A stretch of DNA of 64,000 bases from an uncultured Bacteroidales bacterium (GTDB lineage Bacteria; Bacteroidota; Bacteroidia; Bacteroidales; F082), in assembly GCA_905234645.1 (NCBI GenBank), contig CAJOIS010000003.1:58395-122394 (forward strand). Direction: 5' to 3'. Below, in pieces: positions 6,907 through 49,230 of the stretch. Positions within the stretch are counted from its first letter, which is position 1. Every line of letters starts with the position of its first letter. The translations under genes were made by a program, and so were the position numbers. A model generated the notes under the pieces. The model was not told where the DNA came from, made no database searches, and saw only the letters and a list, made by a program, of their open reading frames with translations.

Positions 6907-6926
6907 GGGGTTTTGGAATAGGTTTT

Positions 6927-6960
6927 GTGGAGACGGTGCATGCACCGTCTCCACATTTTT
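6927..6960 (+). terminator. Terminator formed by the 28-nt perfect palindrome GTGGAGACGGTGCATGCACCGTCTCCAC
   Basis: Perfect inverted repeat followed by A(T)6; same family as 31201-31228. Confidence 0.85.
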
Positions 6961-6988
6961 TATTACCTTTGCAGAAAATCCCTGAACG

Positions 6989-31184: not shown

Positions 31185-31200
31185 TCCAATTTCAAAACAT

Positions 31201-31234
31201 GTAGAGGCGGTGCGTGCACCGTCTCTACCTTTTT
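31201..31234 (+). terminator. Terminator palindrome GTAGAGGCGGTGCGTGCACCGTCTCTAC + T-tract after tnaA
   Basis: 28-nt inverted repeat (one G.T) followed by CTTTTT. Confidence 0.8.
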
Positions 31235-39621: not shown

Positions 39622-39650
39622 GGAAGCACTGCCACAAAAAACCTCGAAAA

Positions 39651-39678
39651 GTCGCCCCAAAACGGGGCGGCTTTTTTT
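39651..39678 (+). terminator. rng terminator
   Basis: GTCGCCCC-AAAAC-GGGGCGGC followed by T7. Confidence 0.85.
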
Positions 39679-39817
39679 GCTTTATCACTCTCCGTAGCCA
39701 AAAATAGTAGGGACAAGCCGTTCTTTCTTTGTATGCTAAATCGTTGATTTTCAATAAAAAGAAATAAGGATATTTCAAAAAAGTAGGGACATGGCCTTAT
39801 GGGGTCCTCTTTGCCTC

Positions 39818-39846
39818 TTGACAAACGTTTTTTCTGTATATTTTTG
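39818..39846 (+). promoter_or_regulatory. Promoter TTGA - 17 nt - TATTTTTG for the TPR regulator
   Basis: Matches Bacteroidetes -33/-7 architecture. Confidence 0.65.
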
Positions 39847-39854
39847 CGATGTCG

Positions 39855-39926
39855 GACACGAGACACGAGACTGCGAGACACGGGACGACTGGATGTCTCG
39901 CGTCCCGCGTCCCGAAGTCCCGCGTC
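39855..39926 (+). repeat. Structured GC-rich repeat, copy 1 (5' UTR of the TPR regulator)
   Basis: GACACGAGAC...GAGACACGGGACGAC...CCCGCGTCCCGAAGTCCCGCGTC; shares GAGACACGGGACGAC, CCCGCGTCCCGA and AGTCCCGCGTC with 48140-48206. Confidence 0.8.
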
Positions 39927-39941
39927 AAAAAGATACAGCAT

Positions 39942-41420
39942 ATGAAAGCAACGCTAAAAACACTCATCCTAACGACATTCATCATCAGCGTGATGCTATC
40001 CGCTTGCGAGAGCCAGACGAAGCGGATGGAACAGGCACAAGCCTTTTATAAAGAGGGTGTGGAGCTGCGGGAGCAACGGCGCTCGGAAGAGGCCGCCGAG
40101 AAGTTCCTGCAAGGACTGACCGTTGTGCAGCGTTCTGATAAGACCATAGAAGCCATACAGTTGGAAGGCCAGCTTTGCGACAATCTCGGCGCCATGTACC
40201 TGAAACACGGCCTCTTCGAGGATGCCTTCGAGCAACACCAACAGGCGTTGCATTGCTTCAAGCAGACGTCTGACTCCTCGGGCATGATGAACGCCTACCG
40301 CAACAGCGGGCGTGCCGTGCGAGCACAGGAACAATACACGCAGGCGAAACACTACTACGACTCGGCTTTCCGCATCGCTACCTTCGTGAAGGACACGGCC
40401 ATGCTGGCGGACCTCCATCTGGAGATGGGACGTGACTATTATATGGAAACAGGTAACTTCGCCAAAGGCATCGAGAGCGTGAACCGAGCTCTGGAATGCG
40501 GCCTGAACGACAATGACACCGATATCGCCCACATGACCTTGGGCATCCTTCATTATTATACACATGAGTACGACAAGGCGAAGGGCTTTCTGAAAGAGGC
40601 GCTTCGCAGCGAGCGCGCGGGACTGAAGATGTCGGTGTATCAGACACTTTACGCCATCGCCTATAGCGAGGGTGACTACCAGCAGGCGGTGCAATACCAC
40701 ACGCTGTTTTCGGATAACCTGGTGCAATCGGAGGCGGAACACTCGCACGAGACCATGCAGCGCATCAAAGCGGAGTATGAGCTGAAGGCGCAGCAGAGCG
40801 AGCTGGAGAGCCTGCACCGCACACGTGACCTGAAGCTGTATCTGATCATCGCCTTGACAGTGATTGCCTTGCTGGTCATCCTGCTGATTGTGAGGAAGAA
40901 AATAAGCGACCACAAATTGGAGATGGAACATTTCGGGCGGCAGGTGGAACGCGACCAGAACCGCATCCACGAACTGGTGAGCGATATGGAAACGCTGATC
41001 CGCACCAACGACGAGCTGCGGCGCAGCCAGCAGAGCCTCTCGCAGAAGGATTTCATGATGATTGAGAAGATCATGGCACGTAACAAGATTATGGCCACGG
41101 CGCAGGCACTCAGTGAGGAGATCAACGCCGACTCGCTCGACTTCGAGCTGACGGACAACGACTGGAAGGACTTCATCGGCCTGACGGACTTGATTTTCGA
41201 CGGCTTCTCGCAACGCCTGCTGCAACTCTACCCCAAGCTCTGCCAATGGGACGTGCGCATCTGCTGCCTCTCCAAGAACGGCTTCTCCAACCAGGTGATT
41301 TCCATCCTGTTGGATACGCAAACGGAGTCTTATTATAAGCGCAAGACGAGGATAAAACAGATGAAAATGGACCTCGGGGACGACAAACGCTCTTTCGAGG
41401 AGATTGTCAATGCGGTTTAA
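39942..41420 (+). CDS. TPR-repeat lipoprotein/membrane regulator with C-terminal HTH-like region (DUF6377-like)
   Basis: Lipobox-like SVMLSACESQ; TPR units; TM LYLIIALTVIALLVILLIV; C-terminal LCQWDVRICCLSKNGFSNQVISILLDTQTESYYKRKTRIKQKM-like helices. Confidence 0.8.
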   Translation: MKATLKTLILTTFIISVMLSACESQTKRMEQAQAFYKEGVELREQRRSEEAAEKFLQGLTVVQRSDKTIEAIQLEGQLCDNLGAMYLKHGLFEDAFEQHQQALHCFKQTSDSSGMMNAYRNSGRAVRAQEQYTQAKHYYDSAFRIATFVKDTAMLADLHLEMGRDYYMETGNFAKGIESVNRALECGLNDNDTDIAHMTLGILHYYTHEYDKAKGFLKEALRSERAGLKMSVYQTLYAIAYSEGDYQQAVQYHTLFSDNLVQSEAEHSHETMQRIKAEYELKAQQSELESLHRTRDLKLYLIIALTVIALLVILLIVRKKISDHKLEMEHFGRQVERDQNRIHELVSDMETLIRTNDELRRSQQSLSQKDFMMIEKIMARNKIMATAQALSEEINADSLDFELTDNDWKDFIGLTDLIFDGFSQRLLQLYPKLCQWDVRICCLSKNGFSNQVISILLDTQTESYYKRKTRIKQMKMDLGDDKRSFEEIVNAV

Positions 41421-41469
41421 TCACAAAACATTCAAAACTGACAAGATAAACAATCAAATAATTAGACCT

Positions 41470-44400
41470 ATGAAGAACCTTAGCTTTATCACATTGATTG
41501 CCCTGATGATGATGGGCGGGATGACAATGAAAGCACAAGACTATCATCCTATCGTCGAAGAGGGAAAACAGTGGAATGTGCTGTTTTCCTATCCTTGGAA
41601 TCCTCCGGAGCCACAGCACAAGTACACCGACATCTACAAAATCGAGGGTGATACGCTGGTGGACGGTGTGTCGTACAAAGTGATGTACACCACAAGAAAT
41701 GAAAACCTTACAGGTTGGAGCGTTTGTGGCGTTATCAGAGAAACCGAAGACAGGCAAGTTCTCTATCGCAGAGACGGCTCTTCTTACGATGAGATTCTCT
41801 ATGATTTTTCAATGGAAGTCGGAGACACCATTATCATGAATGGCAGTGGGTTTTATCCAGATTGGATGTTCGTTGTTGAAACTAATGAAATCCTTATTAA
41901 TGGCGAGCCAAGAAAACAAATCGTGTTGGAATATTCTTGGGGCGACCAGGAAGTGTGGATTGAGGGAATAGGTAGCCTTTATGGAATCATCGATTCAGGT
42001 TCTCTTTTCTTGACGGGAGGCTCGACCGACCTACTTTGCTATTACGAGGATGGCGACCTGATTTGGCAGAACACCACTCCGGGCTATAATGAGTGCTATA
42101 TCGTGAATACTGGGCAACAAAATGGCTTGGTGGTTGCACCGACCACGCTGACTTTTGACGAACCCGCTGTGCCACAATCTTTCATTATCTACAATCATAC
42201 CGACAACGCCGTCACCATCACGGACATCAACGTGCAGCCTGACGACAATATGGTGCTGCTTGACTACTCTGATTTGCCCCGAACCTTGCAGCCCGACGAA
42301 ACCATGAACGTGACAGTGGTAGTGAACAGTTTGGGATACAAAGGCTATAACACTTACTATGTCAATGTGGCGACCTCGATTGGTAACAGGCAAGTCATCG
42401 TCAGGGTCAACGAGGAAGCCTGGGACGAAGGCTTGCAATACATCCCTATGCAGGGGATTACTTTCGATGAAAACACCCCTTTGACGCAAAGTTTCTACCT
42501 GCAAAACACCAATGCCCTGCAAAGCATCACGGTCTATGAGATTAGCGAATATGGCACCAACTATCTTGAGATGGTGCCTTCGCACAGCTTGCCTTACGAA
42601 ATCCCGGCGGGTGGATTCCTTGAGGTTGCGGTCACGCTTGTCAATTTCCCTGAAGAGCAAATAGTGACTCGTGTCTATTGTCGCAGTTCCCAAGGAGAGG
42701 GGGCCGGATATTTCTTCTTTATTGCAGGTGGACTTTCCAATGGCGGCAATGGCGTACATAGCCTTTGGAAGCCCATCAATCTCCCTGGAACACTTTTGGG
42801 TGCAAACGATCAGGGCTATATGTTCAGCACCAACTACGACTCTCCTCAAAGTCTGATGCGCTCACATGACGATGGCGAGACTTGGGAAACCGTGCTTACT
42901 GGTAGCATAGGAAATCTCACCATCAGCAATGAAGGAAGGATTTTTGTTTTCAGTCATAATACGATGACAGTCATGTATTCTGACGACAACGGCGACACAT
43001 GGCAACAAACCAGTCAAATCTCCCCATGCGGTATGATCGATATACCAAGGTTATTTGCCACAACCAATGACATCATTGTGGGGTGGGCTCAAAACGGGGA
43101 AATCTTTTGGACTCTTGACGGGGGAGATACATGGAATGGTACTATCCTTGATTTCATGGAAGACCACCAAGAAATCAGCGACCTTCTCGTCAGCGAAAAC
43201 GGCGATGTGTATGTCAGTGTTTGGTATTACATCGGGCCTAACATCGGCGTGTATCATTCCACACTTTCCGATATGCAAAACTGGGAAATTGCTGCTTTTG
43301 AAGATGTTGGAATCAAAGATATGGCTTTTGACCCCGAAGGCAATATAGTTTGCGCAGTGAATTTCGGCGGCGATTTTTCGGGCTTCGAGCATGTGCCGGG
43401 GTTCTATGCCTTTTGGGCCAATCGTGTTGCCATTGCTGACAACGGCATTGTATACAAGACCGCTATGACCCTGTATGACAACGCGGTTTTGGCCTATTCC
43501 TTGGACCACGGTGAGCATTTCTATAACACCATTGAGGACCTTCCCGTTTCGGAGCCTATTCCCGGCGGTGAAGACGGTTTCCTCTCCAAAGGCTACGACA
43601 ACCACTTGTATTTCCTTGGCAATGACCAATACTGGAAAAGCATTCCCAATGCCAACGACATTCCCAATGTGATTTCTTTCCCCTCGGAATGGTACTACGA
43701 AATCCTCAACGAGAACGGCAGCATTACCTATCAATATATGTATCAGGCTGGCGATACCATCGTTCAGGATGAGCCGACGCATATCCTCGTGAGAATCAAC
43801 ACGCTTTATGATAAAGATGTGCATGAGGAAATGACGCACGAGTATGTTTATATGCGCGACGGCAAGGTGTATTGGTGGAACAAGACTTTGGAGGAATTTA
43901 CCGTGCTGTATGACTTTGGTGCCCAAGAAGGCGACAGTTGGGTCACCAAGGTCGGCACGGAAACGCTCATTATGCATGTGAACTCGGTGGAAACCGTTGA
44001 ATACGAGGACAAAACCTATCGGATGCTGCATGTCAGCGATGTGGACGGTCTCTTTAGCGGCGACATCGTTTGCGGCATCGGTCATCTGACGAGTTTCTTC
44101 CCCGAAAGGCTGATGGGCGACGGCGACCGTATGCGCGTGGAAGGTCTGCGCTGCTATTGGATTGACGACAACCTGGTCTTCAAGCTCGGTGACGAGGACT
44201 GCGATGCCATCATCAGCGAAATCCATGATGTTGAAGAGAATGATCCTTCGACCCCTTCGACAGGCTCAGGGACCGAAGGAACCTTGGTGGTTTATCCTAA
44301 TCCGACCAATGGCATCTTGTTTGTACAGACGTTGAGCGCAACGTCTCTACATGACAATACCTATCGTATCACCAACCTGATGGGTCAGACCGTCCAAACA

Positions 44401-44508
44401 GGTAGCCTCACCGCTGAAACCCAAAAGATTGATGTGACGACTTTGCCGAAGGGAATGTATTTCCTCACTATCGGCAATGAGACACGGAAATTTGTGGTGA
44501 ATAAATAA
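41470..44508 (+). CDS. T9SS-sorted surface protein with BNR-like propeller region and two copies of a ~200-aa module
   Basis: Signal peptide MKNLSFITLIALMMMGGMTMKA; SHDDGETWETV/SDDNGDTWQQT Asp-box-like repeats; CTD VVYPNPTNGILFVQ...YRITNLMGQTVQTG...LPKGMYFLTIGNETRKFVVNK. Confidence 0.85.
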   Translation: MKNLSFITLIALMMMGGMTMKAQDYHPIVEEGKQWNVLFSYPWNPPEPQHKYTDIYKIEGDTLVDGVSYKVMYTTRNENLTGWSVCGVIRETEDRQVLYRRDGSSYDEILYDFSMEVGDTIIMNGSGFYPDWMFVVETNEILINGEPRKQIVLEYSWGDQEVWIEGIGSLYGIIDSGSLFLTGGSTDLLCYYEDGDLIWQNTTPGYNECYIVNTGQQNGLVVAPTTLTFDEPAVPQSFIIYNHTDNAVTITDINVQPDDNMVLLDYSDLPRTLQPDETMNVTVVVNSLGYKGYNTYYVNVATSIGNRQVIVRVNEEAWDEGLQYIPMQGITFDENTPLTQSFYLQNTNALQSITVYEISEYGTNYLEMVPSHSLPYEIPAGGFLEVAVTLVNFPEEQIVTRVYCRSSQGEGAGYFFFIAGGLSNGGNGVHSLWKPINLPGTLLGANDQGYMFSTNYDSPQSLMRSHDDGETWETVLTGSIGNLTISNEGRIFVFSHNTMTVMYSDDNGDTWQQTSQISPCGMIDIPRLFATTNDIIVGWAQNGEIFWTLDGGDTWNGTILDFMEDHQEISDLLVSENGDVYVSVWYYIGPNIGVYHSTLSDMQNWEIAAFEDVGIKDMAFDPEGNIVCAVNFGGDFSGFEHVPGFYAFWANRVAIADNGIVYKTAMTLYDNAVLAYSLDHGEHFYNTIEDLPVSEPIPGGEDGFLSKGYDNHLYFLGNDQYWKSIPNANDIPNVISFPSEWYYEILNENGSITYQYMYQAGDTIVQDEPTHILVRINTLYDKDVHEEMTHEYVYMRDGKVYWWNKTLEEFTVLYDFGAQEGDSWVTKVGTETLIMHVNSVETVEYEDKTYRMLHVSDVDGLFSGDIVCGIGHLTSFFPERLMGDGDRMRVEGLRCYWIDDNLVFKLGDEDCDAIISEIHDVEENDPSTPSTGSGTEGTLVVYPNPTNGILFVQTLSATSLHDNTYRITNLMGQTVQTGSLTAETQKIDVTTLPKGMYFLTIGNETRKFVVNK
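44245..44279. repeat. REP-like palindrome in coding sequence, copy 1
   Basis: CCTTCGACCCCTTCGACAGGCTCAGGGACCGAAGG; outer CCTTCG/CGAAGG arms. Confidence 0.75.
44323..44350. repeat. 28-nt palindrome in coding sequence (GTAGAGACG...CGTCTCTAC family)
   Basis: GTACAGACGTTGAGCGCAACGTCTCTAC; same length and outer arms as 6927-6954 and 31201-31228. Confidence 0.75.
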
Positions 44509-44527
44509 AAATCAAAAATATACAACC

Positions 44528-46369
44528 ATGAAAAAGTTATTATCACTCCTCATTCTTTGCCTCGGATGCTTCGGCTTTTTGGAGGCGCAAGACAGCATTT
44601 GGAAGCCTGTCAATACATTTGGCCCTCTTTTAGGTGCAGGTCCAGATGGGAGCCTCTTTGCCCATCACGGCTACAGCGGTCTCGCCCGCTCGCAAGACGA
44701 AGGTGAGACTTGGCAGATTGTGGCAGGCTACGAAACTGGTTTTAATGGTTATTTCAATCAGTATTGTTTTGCCGTTAGCCCTGAAGGGAGAATCTTTGTC
44801 TTTAATGATGACCAGCAAACCGTAGTGTATTCTGACGATGCTGGCGACACGTGGCAGCAAACCACATCGCCTACACCCAATTGTGCATTTCCCACCAAAA
44901 CAGGCTTATATGCAGTAACCAATGACATTTTTGTCGTATGGGCTCAAGAAGGGGAAATTCACTATACGCTTGACGGTGGCGCAACATGGGATGGATCGAT
45001 TCTTGAGATAGATGAAGAAACTCAACTCAGCGACTTGATTGTCAATGCCGAGGGCGATGTGTACGTCAGTGTTTGGTCATATTCGAATGGAGATACTGGC
45101 ATCTTCCATTCCACCTTGTCAGATATGGAGAATTGGGAAATCGTGGCTGGCGAAGAATTGAACATCCGTGACATGGCCTTCGACCCTGAGGGCAATGTGG
45201 TGGCTTGCGGCTATCATATCGACGGGAGCAGCATCGGTTTCCAACACACTCCTGGTTTCTATCTGTTTGACGGGACGACTCTGGCCATCAGCGACGGCGG
45301 CATCGTGTACACGCCTCACTTCATGGGACTTCAGGCTGTTCTTTCCTATTCCACCGACCATGGCGAGCATTTCACCGAGTTAGGAGAGCACCTTCCCCTA
45401 GTGGATATCGCCCCGGGCGGCGATGCCTATTTCCTCATTAAAGGCCATGACAACCATCTTTATTTTGACGGCGGCGGAGAGTATTGGAAGTGCATTCGTG
45501 ATGCTGACCATATCCGAGGGGAGTTCCCCTTGGAAAACACGGCATGGGTGCAGTTCTACCGCTCCATGTATGAGGACTCCACCTATTACCAGTTGGGCAT
45601 TAAAGGCGATACGCTGGTGAACGAGACGACTTATAAGAAGGTCATCAATTGCGCTCATCTGGGTTATCCTATTGAGGGCGAGTGCTTCGGTGGTATCCGT
45701 GAGGATGCGGACGGCAAATGCTATTTCATGTCGTTCGTGCCAGCAGGTATATATGCGCCTTGGCCTTTGCATTACTACTGTGAGGTGAACACCGAATATC
45801 CCTTGTACGATTTCTCGCTTTCGGTGTGCGATGTCTTCCAGACGGATGGCGGCACGCCCGCCGAAATGCAACTCAACGGCAGTACAAGGAAGGTGCTTTG
45901 GTTTGACAACAACTGCGACAATGGGAATTATTATGATTACCAATGGATCGAAGGCGTTGGAAGCACACACAGCCTGTTGTATCCTATCCAGTGGGAGCCT
46001 GACAACGGGCCGGAATACCGTTTGGTGGAGGTTTGGCAAGATGAGGAACTGCTATACAAGAACCCACATTTTCTTGACTATTTCCCCTTGGTCCAAGCGG
46101 ACAACAACCGCCAGAAATGGAATGTGGTTTACCTTGCTTCTATGAACTATCCTAATGATTACTTTACTGAAACCCAAAGTATTAGAGATAACATTACCTT
46201 GGATGGAGTGGACTATAAACTTGTTTGGAAGGAAGATGTGTATGATTCCAAAAAAATTGCAGGTGCGGTTCGCGAAGAGGACAAGAGGGTGTATTATCGC
46301 ATGTATTGGCAGCAATCCTACCAAAACGAGGTGCTGCTTTACGATTTCAATTTAGTGATTATCGGTTGA
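44528..46369 (+). CDS. T9SS surface protein paralog, N-terminal part (frame broken near 46350)
   Basis: Signal peptide MKKLLSLLILCLGCFGFLEA; Asp-box repeats SQDEGETWQIV/SDDAGDTWQQT; ends abruptly ...EVLLYDFNLVIIG*. Confidence 0.75.
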   Translation: MKKLLSLLILCLGCFGFLEAQDSIWKPVNTFGPLLGAGPDGSLFAHHGYSGLARSQDEGETWQIVAGYETGFNGYFNQYCFAVSPEGRIFVFNDDQQTVVYSDDAGDTWQQTTSPTPNCAFPTKTGLYAVTNDIFVVWAQEGEIHYTLDGGATWDGSILEIDEETQLSDLIVNAEGDVYVSVWSYSNGDTGIFHSTLSDMENWEIVAGEELNIRDMAFDPEGNVVACGYHIDGSSIGFQHTPGFYLFDGTTLAISDGGIVYTPHFMGLQAVLSYSTDHGEHFTELGEHLPLVDIAPGGDAYFLIKGHDNHLYFDGGGEYWKCIRDADHIRGEFPLENTAWVQFYRSMYEDSTYYQLGIKGDTLVNETTYKKVINCAHLGYPIEGECFGGIREDADGKCYFMSFVPAGIYAPWPLHYYCEVNTEYPLYDFSLSVCDVFQTDGGTPAEMQLNGSTRKVLWFDNNCDNGNYYDYQWIEGVGSTHSLLYPIQWEPDNGPEYRLVEVWQDEELLYKNPHFLDYFPLVQADNNRQKWNVVYLASMNYPNDYFTETQSIRDNITLDGVDYKLVWKEDVYDSKKIAGAVREEDKRVYYRMYWQQSYQNEVLLYDFNLVIIG

Positions 46370-48033
46370 TTGTGCTTGAAGAATCTCAAGTTCAAGTAAA
46401 TGGTACCATGAGACGACAATTGGGTTTGGCTATGTATTTTGACGATGGCACCACAGGTGAAGTAGAAGAATACTGGATTGAAGGTGTGGGCAGCACTTAC
46501 GGCTTCTTGAACAGTGGCTATGAAGGTTGGGTCGGCGCGTTTGTCCATCTGTTGTGCTACCACGAGAACGGCGACCTGGTTTGGGACAACGAGGCGTTTG
46601 ACGAGTGCGTGATGAACAGCGACGGAGTGCCTGCGTCGTTTGCTCCCCAAGAGGCGGAGTGGTATTTCGATGTGTTCGACCCATGGGGCACTCATCCTGA
46701 ATATCAGAGGTTTTACGTGGATGGCGACACGATTATCCAAGGTCATCAGTGCAGCATCATCATTCAGCGTTTTGTTGAAACAGAGCATGATGGGGAAGAA
46801 TATGTGTATGAGGAAGACAACAAGGTGTATTGGTTGAACCCGACCACAAACGCCTTCTCGACCTTGTATGACTTTGATGCTGAAGCTGGCGAATCGTGGT
46901 ACTACGAAGTAGGTGAGTGTTCGCATTTGGTGATTGTCGATAGTGTTGGCAGCGTGACTTGGAATGGGCACACTTATCGTACGCAGTGGGTCAGGTTTAA
47001 CGATGACCTTCCGACTTATTATAGTGGGAAAATCATAGAAGGAATTGGCTATGAGAAAGGCTTGTTTCCCAGCGTTTATGTTTGTAATGGATGGGAAATC
47101 TTTGATGCAAGTGAGATAGAATACCTTCGTTGCTATGTTAATGATGGCGAGATGCTTTATCACGAAGGGGGATATGATTGCGAACAAACTACTGTCACAC
47201 CGCCGAGCCATCCTGAATGGTACTACGAAATCCTTAACGATGATGGCACTATTACCTACCAATACATGTACCAGGCGGGCGACACCATCATCAATGACGA
47301 GCCGACGCATATCCTCGTGAGAATCAACACGCTTTACGACAAAGGATTGCGTGATGAGGTGACACATGAGTATGTCTTTGAGCTCAACGGCAAGTTATAT
47401 TGGTGGAACAAGCGCACTCATAGTTTCACCGTGCTTTATGACTACGAAGCCGAGGTTGGCGACAGCTGGAATATCATGGTCGGCATAGAGCCTCCACTCA
47501 CCATGACTGTGGATGCTGTGGATTTCGTCGAATACGAAGGTAGAACCTATCGTGTGATGCACGTCAGCGACCCCGACGACCTTTTCAGCGGCAACATCGT
47601 GTGCGGCATCGGACACCTGACGAGTTTCTTCCCCGAGCGGCTGATGGGCGACGGCGAGCGTACGCGCGTGGATGGTCTGCGCTGCTATTGGGTTGGGGAG
47701 GAACTGGTGTTTAAGATTGGCGATGAGGATTGCGATGCCATCATCAGCGAAATCCATAATGTTGAAGAGGATGGCCCTTCGACCCCTTCGACGGGCTCAG
47801 GGGCCTTGGTGGTTTATCCTAACCCTGCCAACGGCATTTTGAACGTATCTGTACGGCTGCCACAGTGTGACAGCCCTGCGGACCAAACGTATCGTATCAC
47901 TAACTTGATGGGCCAAACCTTGTTGACAGGCCAAATCACGGCTGAAAACCAACAAATTGATGTGTCGAATTTGCCCGAGGGTATGTATTTCATAACCTTT
48001 GCAGGTGATACGCAGAAATTTGTGCTACGATAA
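46306..48033 (+). CDS. T9SS surface protein paralog, C-terminal part (other half of the 44528 gene)
   Basis: Homology to the 41470 gene resumes at LIVLEESQVQVNGTMRRQLGL; CTD VVYPNPANGILNVS...YRITNLMGQTLLTG...MYFITFAGDTQKFVLR; no signal peptide, so its 'start' is not real. Confidence 0.75.
   Translation: MAAILPKRGAALRFQFSDYRLIVLEESQVQVNGTMRRQLGLAMYFDDGTTGEVEEYWIEGVGSTYGFLNSGYEGWVGAFVHLLCYHENGDLVWDNEAFDECVMNSDGVPASFAPQEAEWYFDVFDPWGTHPEYQRFYVDGDTIIQGHQCSIIIQRFVETEHDGEEYVYEEDNKVYWLNPTTNAFSTLYDFDAEAGESWYYEVGECSHLVIVDSVGSVTWNGHTYRTQWVRFNDDLPTYYSGKIIEGIGYEKGLFPSVYVCNGWEIFDASEIEYLRCYVNDGEMLYHEGGYDCEQTTVTPPSHPEWYYEILNDDGTITYQYMYQAGDTIINDEPTHILVRINTLYDKGLRDEVTHEYVFELNGKLYWWNKRTHSFTVLYDYEAEVGDSWNIMVGIEPPLTMTVDAVDFVEYEGRTYRVMHVSDPDDLFSGNIVCGIGHLTSFFPERLMGDGERTRVDGLRCYWVGEELVFKIGDEDCDAIISEIHNVEEDGPSTPSTGSGALVVYPNPANGILNVSVRLPQCDSPADQTYRITNLMGQTLLTGQITAENQQIDVSNLPEGMYFITFAGDTQKFVLR
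47773..47805. repeat. REP-like palindrome in coding sequence, copy 2
   Basis: GGCCCTTCGACCCCTTCGACGGGCTCAGGGGCC; core shared with 44245-44279. Confidence 0.75.
47855..47875. repeat. Palindrome in coding sequence, different family
   Basis: GGCTGCCAC-AGT-GTGACAGCC, one mismatch. Confidence 0.65.
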
Positions 48034-48059
48034 TCGTGGCTTAAAACCGAACCAAGAAA

Positions 48060-48089
48060 GTCCGTCTCGTAATGGGGCGGGCTTTTTTG
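48060..48089 (+). terminator. Terminator after the surface-protein genes
   Basis: CCGTCTC-GTAAT-GGGGCGG with wobble pairs then CTTTTTTG. Confidence 0.65.
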
Positions 48090-48118
48090 TACTGACTTTG
48101 TTTTTTTTCTTACTTTTG
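48086..48118 (+). promoter_or_regulatory. Promoter TTTG - 21 nt - TACTTTTG for trpS
   Basis: Matches Bacteroidetes -33/-7 architecture. Confidence 0.6.
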
Positions 48119-48139
48119 CACCCAAATAATCATTGACAT

Positions 48140-48206
48140 GAGACTTCGTGACACGAGACACGGGACGACCGACAGTCTTGCGTCTCGCAGTCCCGCGTCC
48201 CGAGTC
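48140..48206 (+). repeat. Structured GC-rich repeat, copy 2 (5' UTR of trpS)
   Basis: GAGACTTCGTGACACGAGACACGGGACGACCGACAGTCTTGCGTCTCGCAGTCCCGCGTCCCGAGTC, direct orientation relative to copy 1. Confidence 0.8.
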
Positions 48207-48219
48207 AAATAAAACATTT

Positions 48220-49230
48220 ATGGCAAAAGACATTGTTTTGAGCGGTATCCGTCCCACCGGAAACCTTCACCTTGGCAACTATTATGGCGCCGTGCGCAGC
48301 TTCGTGAAGATGCAGGAAGACTACAACTGCTATTTCTTCATTGCCGATTGGCATTCGCTGACCACGCACCCCACACCCGAAAACATACAGAAATCGGCTC
48401 GCACCATCTTGGCCGAATACCTCGCTTGCGGCATTGACCCCGAAAAAGCCACCATCTACATCCAAAGTGATGTGCCTGAAACGATAGAGTTATACCTCTA
48501 TTTCAACATGAACGCCTACATCGGCGAGCTAGGTCGTGTGACAACCTTCAAAGAGAAGGCTCGCCAGCAACCCGACAACGTTAATGCAGGCCTATTCACC
48601 TATCCGACCCTCATGGCTGCCGACATTCTGCAACACCGTGCCAAGTGGGTGCCCGTGGGTAAGGATCAGGAGCAGAACATGGAGATGGCACGCAAATGTG
48701 CCCGCCGCTTCAACAATATCTACAAGGTCGAGTTCTTCCCCGAGCCGCAGAACTACTACTTTGGTGGCGATGCCATCAAGGTGCCGGGATTGGACGGTAG
48801 CGGCAAGATGGGCAAGAGCGATGGCAACTGCATCTATCTCTTTGAGGACGAAAAAACCATGCGCAAGAAGGTGATGCGCGCCGTCACCGATAGCGGTCCG
48901 ACGGAGCCTAACAGCCCCAAGCCCGAGGTCATTCAGAACCTCTTCACGATGATGAACATCGTCAGCGAGCCCGAAACGGTGAAGTACTTCGACGAGAAGT
49001 GGAACGACTGCTCCATTCGCTATGGCGACATGAAGAAACAACTGGCAGACGACCTGGAGAAGGCCGTTGCCCCCATTCGCGAGCGCATCAAGGAGTACTC
49101 GTCCGACGAAGAAAGACTCAACCGTATCGCCCGTATGGGTGCCGAGAAGGCTCGCGAGAGCGCCGCAAAGACGTTGAACGAAGTGAGAAAGATCATTGGT
49201 TTTAGACAATACTGTATTTTTTCAGTGTAA
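48220..49230 (+). CDS. trpS: Tryptophanyl-tRNA synthetase
   Basis: SGIRPTGNLHLGNYYGAV (HIGH) and GKMGKSDGN (KMSKS); start MAKDIVLSG. Confidence 0.97.
   Translation: MAKDIVLSGIRPTGNLHLGNYYGAVRSFVKMQEDYNCYFFIADWHSLTTHPTPENIQKSARTILAEYLACGIDPEKATIYIQSDVPETIELYLYFNMNAYIGELGRVTTFKEKARQQPDNVNAGLFTYPTLMAADILQHRAKWVPVGKDQEQNMEMARKCARRFNNIYKVEFFPEPQNYYFGGDAIKVPGLDGSGKMGKSDGNCIYLFEDEKTMRKKVMRAVTDSGPTEPNSPKPEVIQNLFTMMNIVSEPETVKYFDEKWNDCSIRYGDMKKQLADDLEKAVAPIRERIKEYSSDEERLNRIARMGAEKARESAAKTLNEVRKIIGFRQYCIFSV

Follow-up and report, generated by a model that had tools for sequence, protein, structure and literature searches.

A genus-specific family of short GAC-heptad palindromic repeats inserted ahead of start codons in rumen Bacteroidales

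The leaders of two unrelated genes, one encoding a TPR-domain regulator and the other tryptophanyl-tRNA synthetase (trpS), contain copies of the same imperfect palindrome in the window analysed here, a 64,000-nucleotide stretch of contig CAJOIS010000003.1 from an uncultured Bacteroidales bacterium. This GAC-heptad element (GAC element) belongs to a family of short palindromic repeats made of 7–8-nt GAC units, and the family is genus-specific and found in rumen Bacteroidales. Because relatives with the same promoters cleanly lack both copies, the window copies are insertion polymorphisms. The element is a repeat resembling REP sequences and Rickettsia palindromic elements (RPE), with an unusual heptamer architecture. 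It is not a riboswitch, because its stem pairs without compensatory change and its variable positions avoid pairing. On balance, the family is probably a mobile or expanding palindromic repeat that was inserted into leaders, operon junctions and a few coding loops, is retained in the sense orientation close to start codons, has a core under selection and plays a structural role as an mRNA stem-loop.

Architecture and copy number

Both window copies are imperfect palindromes 72 nt long and are direct repeats of one another. Copy 2 opens with GACATGAGAC, and GAGACACGGGACGAC is common to both. An earlier note on this DNA had placed two structured repeats sharing direct-orientation sequence ahead of the TPR regulator gene and trpS, and they are indeed found there. 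Its bounds for copy 1 (39855–39926) stand, but its start for copy 2, position 48140, misses the first GAC, and the true start is 48135.

The core GACACGGGAC has 51 exact matches in the source genome, compared with 0 for a reversed control. A covariance model built from 17 aligned copies gave 102 matches; most sites score on both strands, and about 50 distinct sites were found in this genome at E ≤ 0.01. The consensus 5′ arm, GAC-RCGA-GAC-TNCGA-GAC-RCGA-GAC-RCGA-GAC, is followed by a loop of about 8 nt and by the consensus 3′ arm, GTC-CCGY-GTC-CCGNA-GTC-CCGY-GTC-CCGY-GTC. When both arms are read along the sense strand, the GAC/GTC units follow a 7-8-7-7 spacing in 83 of 94 parsed 5′ arms and in 51 of 94 3′ arms. 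As this rhythm runs sense-wise in both, the second arm is no simple mirror of the first.

At the non-orthologous places L124:7543-7639, L083:201-290, L154, L144 and L069, the GAC element is embedded in a larger repeated unit whose flanks are similar (TAAGTAGATGAGCATATTTAGTTTACATATT ... TGTAGTTTAATTCTGAACAGTTACTTA), an arrangement that is MITE-like (miniature inverted-repeat transposable element).

Position and orientation relative to genes

Copies were oriented by their own asymmetry (an A-rich 5′ arm and a C-rich 3′ arm), blind to genes, which were called afterwards. A same-strand open reading frame starts within 120 nt of 30 of the 36 good copies in the source genome, mostly at a distance of 6–18 nt. 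Hand checks assigned the sense orientation to L045 and L167, with starts 2–13 nt away, and to L030, which precedes tRNA-Leu; L168 is also sense, with a start at 176 nt. The resulting tally is 34 sense and 2 antisense copies, and both antisense copies score nearly equally on either strand. Copies are thus not scattered regardless of start codons, and the link to start codons stands.

Among 128 copies, the genes on either side form a ++ pair in 93 cases, a -+ pair in 16 and a -- pair in 4, with no convergent pair and 4 copies within one coding sequence (the remaining 11 copies lie at contig ends). Background gene pairs (n=452) comprise 366 co-directional, 49 convergent and 37 divergent pairs. 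The earlier proposal of a small repeat targeting promoter-proximal leaders largely holds as regards leaders, but the link to promoters does not extend to the family as a whole: a promoter-linked element was rejected because the majority of copies sit at operon junctions, where the neighbouring genes are co-directional and the preceding stop codon lies 1–35 nt 5′ of the element. The downstream genes, named by reading their N-termini, are unrelated and include trpS, coaD, truB, pyrF, rimM, pheT, fabZ, aroE, lpxB, ssb and hprK, among others.

Empty sites and in-frame insertions

At the trpS locus of the source genome, the element lies between CCCAAATAATCA and TTTATGG; relatives G002, G021 and G056 share the promoter but not the element and read ...CCCAAATTGAATCAATTATGG. 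At the TPR gene locus, G018 and G048 likewise have the same promoter without the element, reading GCGAAGTCAAAAACGAAAATGTCATG. Another palindrome is nested at this locus in G002 and G021, with a GAC remnant in G021. Between prfA and pyrF, G012, G030, G031, G023, G034 and G055 have short spacers, G000, G024, G044 and G107 carry a GAC element, and G016 and G033 carry CCCTTCGACAGGCTCAGGG, which is a different palindrome. At galM, the stop and start codons overlap (ATGA) in G007, G012, G044 and G135, six genomes carry the element, and further genomes carry GAC variants with more 8-nt units.

Coding sequences have also received the element. A hexapeptide acetyltransferase gene holds an in-frame copy (TATAAT|element|ATGGAAAAC), compared with TATAATATGGAAAAC in the empty ortholog. 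In-frame versions occupy a loop of chorismate synthase (aroC) in 12 of 27 genomes, and empty orthologs exist. The aroC GAC-heptad arrays differ greatly in length between species and are direct-only in G024, G029, G056 and G057.

Conservation and pairing of the stem

Between orthologs, the GTC/CG letters of the 3′ arm diverge by 2.7% (4.3% when one pair per gene is taken), as against 18–24% for the Y letters of the same arm, 29% for loops and 19–26% for flanks; these stem-core letters are about 7–10x better conserved than loops and flanks. The 5′ arm is conserved even more, but was left uncounted because contig copies were found by their 5′ arm pattern. Ortholog pairs obtained by protein search (galM, pyrF and the MSKFK gene) have the same conservation pattern, as judged by eye. 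It is mainly because the 3′ arm core outlasts loops and flanks between orthologs that a host-level function is supported, and a host-level role, probably as a leader or intercistronic stem-loop, is plausible. The idea that the R/Y letters hypermutate was dropped, as R letters are mostly inherited (6 of 111 differ between orthologs).

Compared with dinucleotide shuffles, copies 1 and 2 fold more stably (z -3.3 and -3.5, respectively). The earlier note had raised a shared cis-acting RNA, to be checked by covariance analysis, and here the covariation test came out negative. In a set of 40 distinct elements, pairing holds at the 23 core pairs in 98.8% of cases with 0 compensatory (two-sided) changes, and the six scored variable pairs are paired in 10–75% of cases. 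The covariation score, 0.032, lies below that of shuffled alignments (0.049, sd 0.004). Watson–Crick R2-Y1 pairs number 42, where 80.6 (sd 4.2) were expected, and the mismatches are mostly A.C. The N letter of the 5′ 8-nt spacer and the M letter of the 3′ 8-nt spacer are complementary in 3 of 53 cases, compared with 19.2 expected; since N and M do not lie opposite one another in the main fold, this deficit is not a matter of simple pairing. Common descent of the copies could cause part of the pairing avoidance, and this contribution is not fully removable here.

The mean fold energy is -34.1 kcal/mol for the sense RNA and -43.4 kcal/mol for the antisense RNA, and the antisense form is the more stable in 116 of 128 copies. 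The weaker sense fold is one consequence of avoided arm pairing, and it fits selection against an over-stable hairpin ahead of the start codon.

Taxonomic distribution

The pattern occurs in 43 of 173 genomes of the bacterial family and is confined to 1 of its 16 genera. Even sampling of the order yielded 3 positive genomes among 393, all of the same genus. A species-wide contig scan with the exact pattern returned, among the matches listed, Bacteroidales (mostly rumen) except for one contig labelled Quinella. This contig, L121 (JADEZP010000027.1), carries the element and is probably a misbinned Bacteroidales contig. One viral contig, which may be a mislabelled bacterial fragment, has half an element (L304:3952-3976). 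Within the genus, the element tracks a subclade: genomes whose TrpS is about 70% identical to that of the source genome have none, whereas most of those at 96–100% are positive. The number of sites per genome ranges from a few to about 50.

Comparison with known repeat families

RPE insert in frame in protein-coding genes. The GAC element resembles them in being a small, multi-copy, lineage-specific palindrome that also lies in frame within conserved coding genes, namely in the aroC loop and the hexapeptide acetyltransferase, whose orthologs include empty ones. By description, RPE are set apart by phylum and sequence, and GAC copies differ in lying mostly one-way before starts and in having arms of 7–8-nt units.

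RPE have been treated as CGTC-type repeats, and CGTC-type REPs have no dedicated transposase (PMC3733652). Like the REP and REPIN sequences (RAYT; GTAG- and CGTC-tagged), the GAC element is a short imperfect palindrome with many intergenic copies. Unlike them, it has neither a conserved GTAG nor a conserved CGTC tag at its ends, which read GAC...GTC with T (40%), C (37%) or A (22%) before the last GTC. The RAYT-type genes sampled have no copies on their flanks, the stem is longer with periodic mismatches, and the sense, start-proximal orientation is strict.

TAACTGA heptamers occur as direct repeats in Beggiatoaceae, Cyanobacteria and some Bacteroidetes (MacGregor 2015, PMC4679880). They share with the GAC element heptad units that stand forward and directly 5′ of the starts of unrelated and essential genes, some overlapping or lying inside open reading frames. 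They are, however, direct arrays of one AT-rich heptamer, whereas the GAC element is a genus-restricted, GC-rich inverted pair of heptad arrays with the unit GACRCGA. Miniature inverted-repeat transposable elements are likewise short non-coding insertions of inverted structure; the GAC element is itself an inverted repeat, and five empty-site comparisons showed no consistent combination of terminal inverted repeat and target-site duplication. The GAC element thus shares traits with RPE, REP and TAACTGA heptamers, but lacks the defining features of REP (tag and RAYT flanks) and of TAACTGA heptamers (direct arrays of the same unit).

Proposed role and alternatives

It is proposed that a palindrome of about 72 nt, each arm of which has four or five GAC/GTC units, moves and inserts as DNA and would then be retained almost exclusively in the sense orientation, directly 5′ of start codons. 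Selection would subsequently maintain the GTC/CG stem core of inserted copies. In the mRNA, the element would form an interrupted stem-loop in which GAC-GTC and CG-CG blocks are split by mostly A.C mismatches, and it would end in an A-rich unpaired spacer 5′ of the AUG that leaves the ribosome landing site free. Two studies (PMC3155529, PMC6847099) describe Bacteroidota as having no Shine–Dalgarno signals, with initiation tuned by mRNA structure; for this reason, the A-rich gap after the stem would be expected to matter. The RNA stem-loop is presumably the selected feature, and may serve as a structural spacer or insulator that protects or decouples the downstream cistron.

Several observations weigh against this proposal. 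No consistent target-site duplication was seen at the five empty-site comparisons, and no transposase or reverse transcriptase mobilising the GAC element was identified. Y1-type transposase genes are present in 15 of 15 element-bearing genomes, but also in 9 of 15 element-free genomes, and the 11 RAYT-type loci sampled contain no GAC units and have no copies on their flanks. In-frame copies within genes, together with slot swapping with other palindromes, could reflect mere tolerance rather than function, and the search bias on the 5′ arm leaves 3′ arm conservation alone as bias-free evidence. Proteins of the REP-associated type (~223–263 aa) are confined to element-bearing genomes among those sampled, but no sampled gene of this type has copies on its flanks, and a RAYT link was rejected.

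A purely selfish palindrome that inserts at random, and whose bias in position and orientation reflects least harm (the antisense hairpin being the stronger one before a gene), is a possible but rather unlikely explanation. It would account for the greater stability of the antisense RNA, for the in-frame insertions in aroC and the acetyltransferase, and for the occupation of these slots by other palindromic families in sister species. It is at odds, however, with the total absence of the 128 copies from convergent spacers, where harm to initiation would be nil, and with a core that in inserted copies outconserves loop and flanks.

It is more doubtful that the element is a sequence-specific binding array, in which each GAC heptad would be a putative protein-binding unit on RNA or DNA, as suggested by analogy with the TAACTGA heptamers of Beggiatoaceae (PMC4679880), and the hairpin would be secondary. 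The fixed GAC/CG letters, the sense 7-8-7-7 rhythm of both arms, the lack of compensatory changes and the avoided pairing at variable sites would all agree with such an array, as would the AACTGA-type heptads at the same place in trpS leaders of sister species. Against it, arms in the GAC family are as a rule inverted, where the Beggiatoaceae precedent has direct arrays, and no protein is known to bind the element.

A shared regulatory RNA (riboswitch, T-box or attenuator-like) governing a regulon is very improbable. Its presumably transcribed position, conserved fold and clear z-scores speak for it, but an Rfam scan of the window gave 0 family matches, covariation is absent and presence is polymorphic at orthologous copies of functionally unrelated housekeeping genes; a riboswitch or regulon identity was therefore dropped. 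The earlier suggestion that the element codes for an N-terminal extension, prompted by the open frame at both genes and in keeping with the in-frame insertions in aroC and the acetyltransferase, is very unlikely for these two genes, as element-free relatives start at the corresponding ATG and the TPR protein needs ATG 39942 for its lipoprotein signal, which would otherwise be displaced.

Other palindromes and heptad arrays in the same slots

In other species, the trpS, galM and MSKFK junctions (L316-L375, L186-L214) contain arrays, many of them inverted, of unrelated 7-nt units such as GAATGCT, GGAATGC, CGGAATT, GCTGATA, GTTTACT, GAAGTTT and GTTAAAA. Of 15 junction fillers, 11 had their best period at a lag of 7; the fillers were picked by eye, so that this is a lead and not a test. 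The palindrome CCCTTCGACAGGCTCAGGG or close variants are nested in, or replace, GAC-element loops at L027, L054 and L124, and occur at junctions in G016, G029, G033 and G042. A second palindromic family, TGTGGAGACGGTGCATGCACCGTCTCCACATTTTT, lies at window 6926-6961 and 31194-31234, with a near copy 5′ of trpS in G034 and G055.

An improbable but broader idea is that some process in the genus writes inverted arrays of 7-nt units (GACRCGA included), of almost any sequence, into start-proximal slots. Period, inversion and position would be conserved and the unit sequence swapped wholesale, with arms that stay non-complementary at variable letters. Speculatively, telomerase-like repeat-adding polymerases might lie behind such writing. 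Bacteria are known to have one telomerase-like reverse transcriptase that adds repeats, DRT10, the repeats being 9 nt long in one system (PMC12632851); any link between a DRT10-type enzyme and the heptads of this genus is speculation.

Features of the window

The leader features that the earlier note had described, a TAnnTTTG box upstream of each copy, an A-rich gap of 13–15 nt before the ATG and an open frame with the respective downstream gene, were recovered at both copies (Table 1). Orthologs of the TPR regulator in G002, G018, G021 and G048 are 85–87% identical, and trpS orthologs of the element-bearing clade are 90–98% identical over their aligned length. In the window, rng and trpS are split by a block of the TPR regulator and long secreted-protein genes (39622-48206). 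The same block splits them in G002, G018, G021 and G048, and the two genes are adjacent in several relatives. Direct recombination of the two window copies around this 8-kb block is unsupported, as the block also occurs in relatives that lack the trpS copy.

Table 1. Coordinates of the two GAC elements and of the surrounding leader features and genes in the window.
Feature	Window position	Strand	Remarks
GAC-heptad palindrome copy 1	39855..39926	+	Leader of TPR-domain regulator gene; nhmmer 57.8 bits, sense
GAC-heptad palindrome copy 2	48135..48206	+	Leader of trpS; nhmmer 67.8 bits, sense
TAnnTTTG -7 box TATTTTTG	39839..39846	+	8 nt 5′ of copy 1; read from sequence
TTG of -33 region	39818-39820	+	Belongs with -7 box TATTTTTG
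TAnnTTTG -7 box TACTTTTG	48111..48118	+	16 nt 5′ of copy 2; read from sequence
A-rich spacer, copy 1 to ATG	39927..39941	+	15 nt
A-rich spacer, copy 2 to ATG	48207..48219	+	13 nt
TPR-domain regulator gene	39942..41420	+	3′ of copy 1; lipoprotein-type signal MKATLKTLILTTFIISVMLSAC
trpS (tryptophanyl-tRNA synthetase)	48220..49230	+	3′ of copy 2

Implications

Gene callers should be warned that the element can give false N-terminal extensions. The avoided pairing between arms is the opposite of what covariation normally shows and calls for an explanation. If the slot-writing process were real, it would represent a new class of system that generates and selects repeats. The GAC family connects palindromic repeats with the unexplained heptamer repeats seen in distant bacteria. 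Inside one genus, it has reshaped dozens of essential genes at their leaders and operon junctions, and its presence or absence at orthologous genes makes an effect on expression directly testable.

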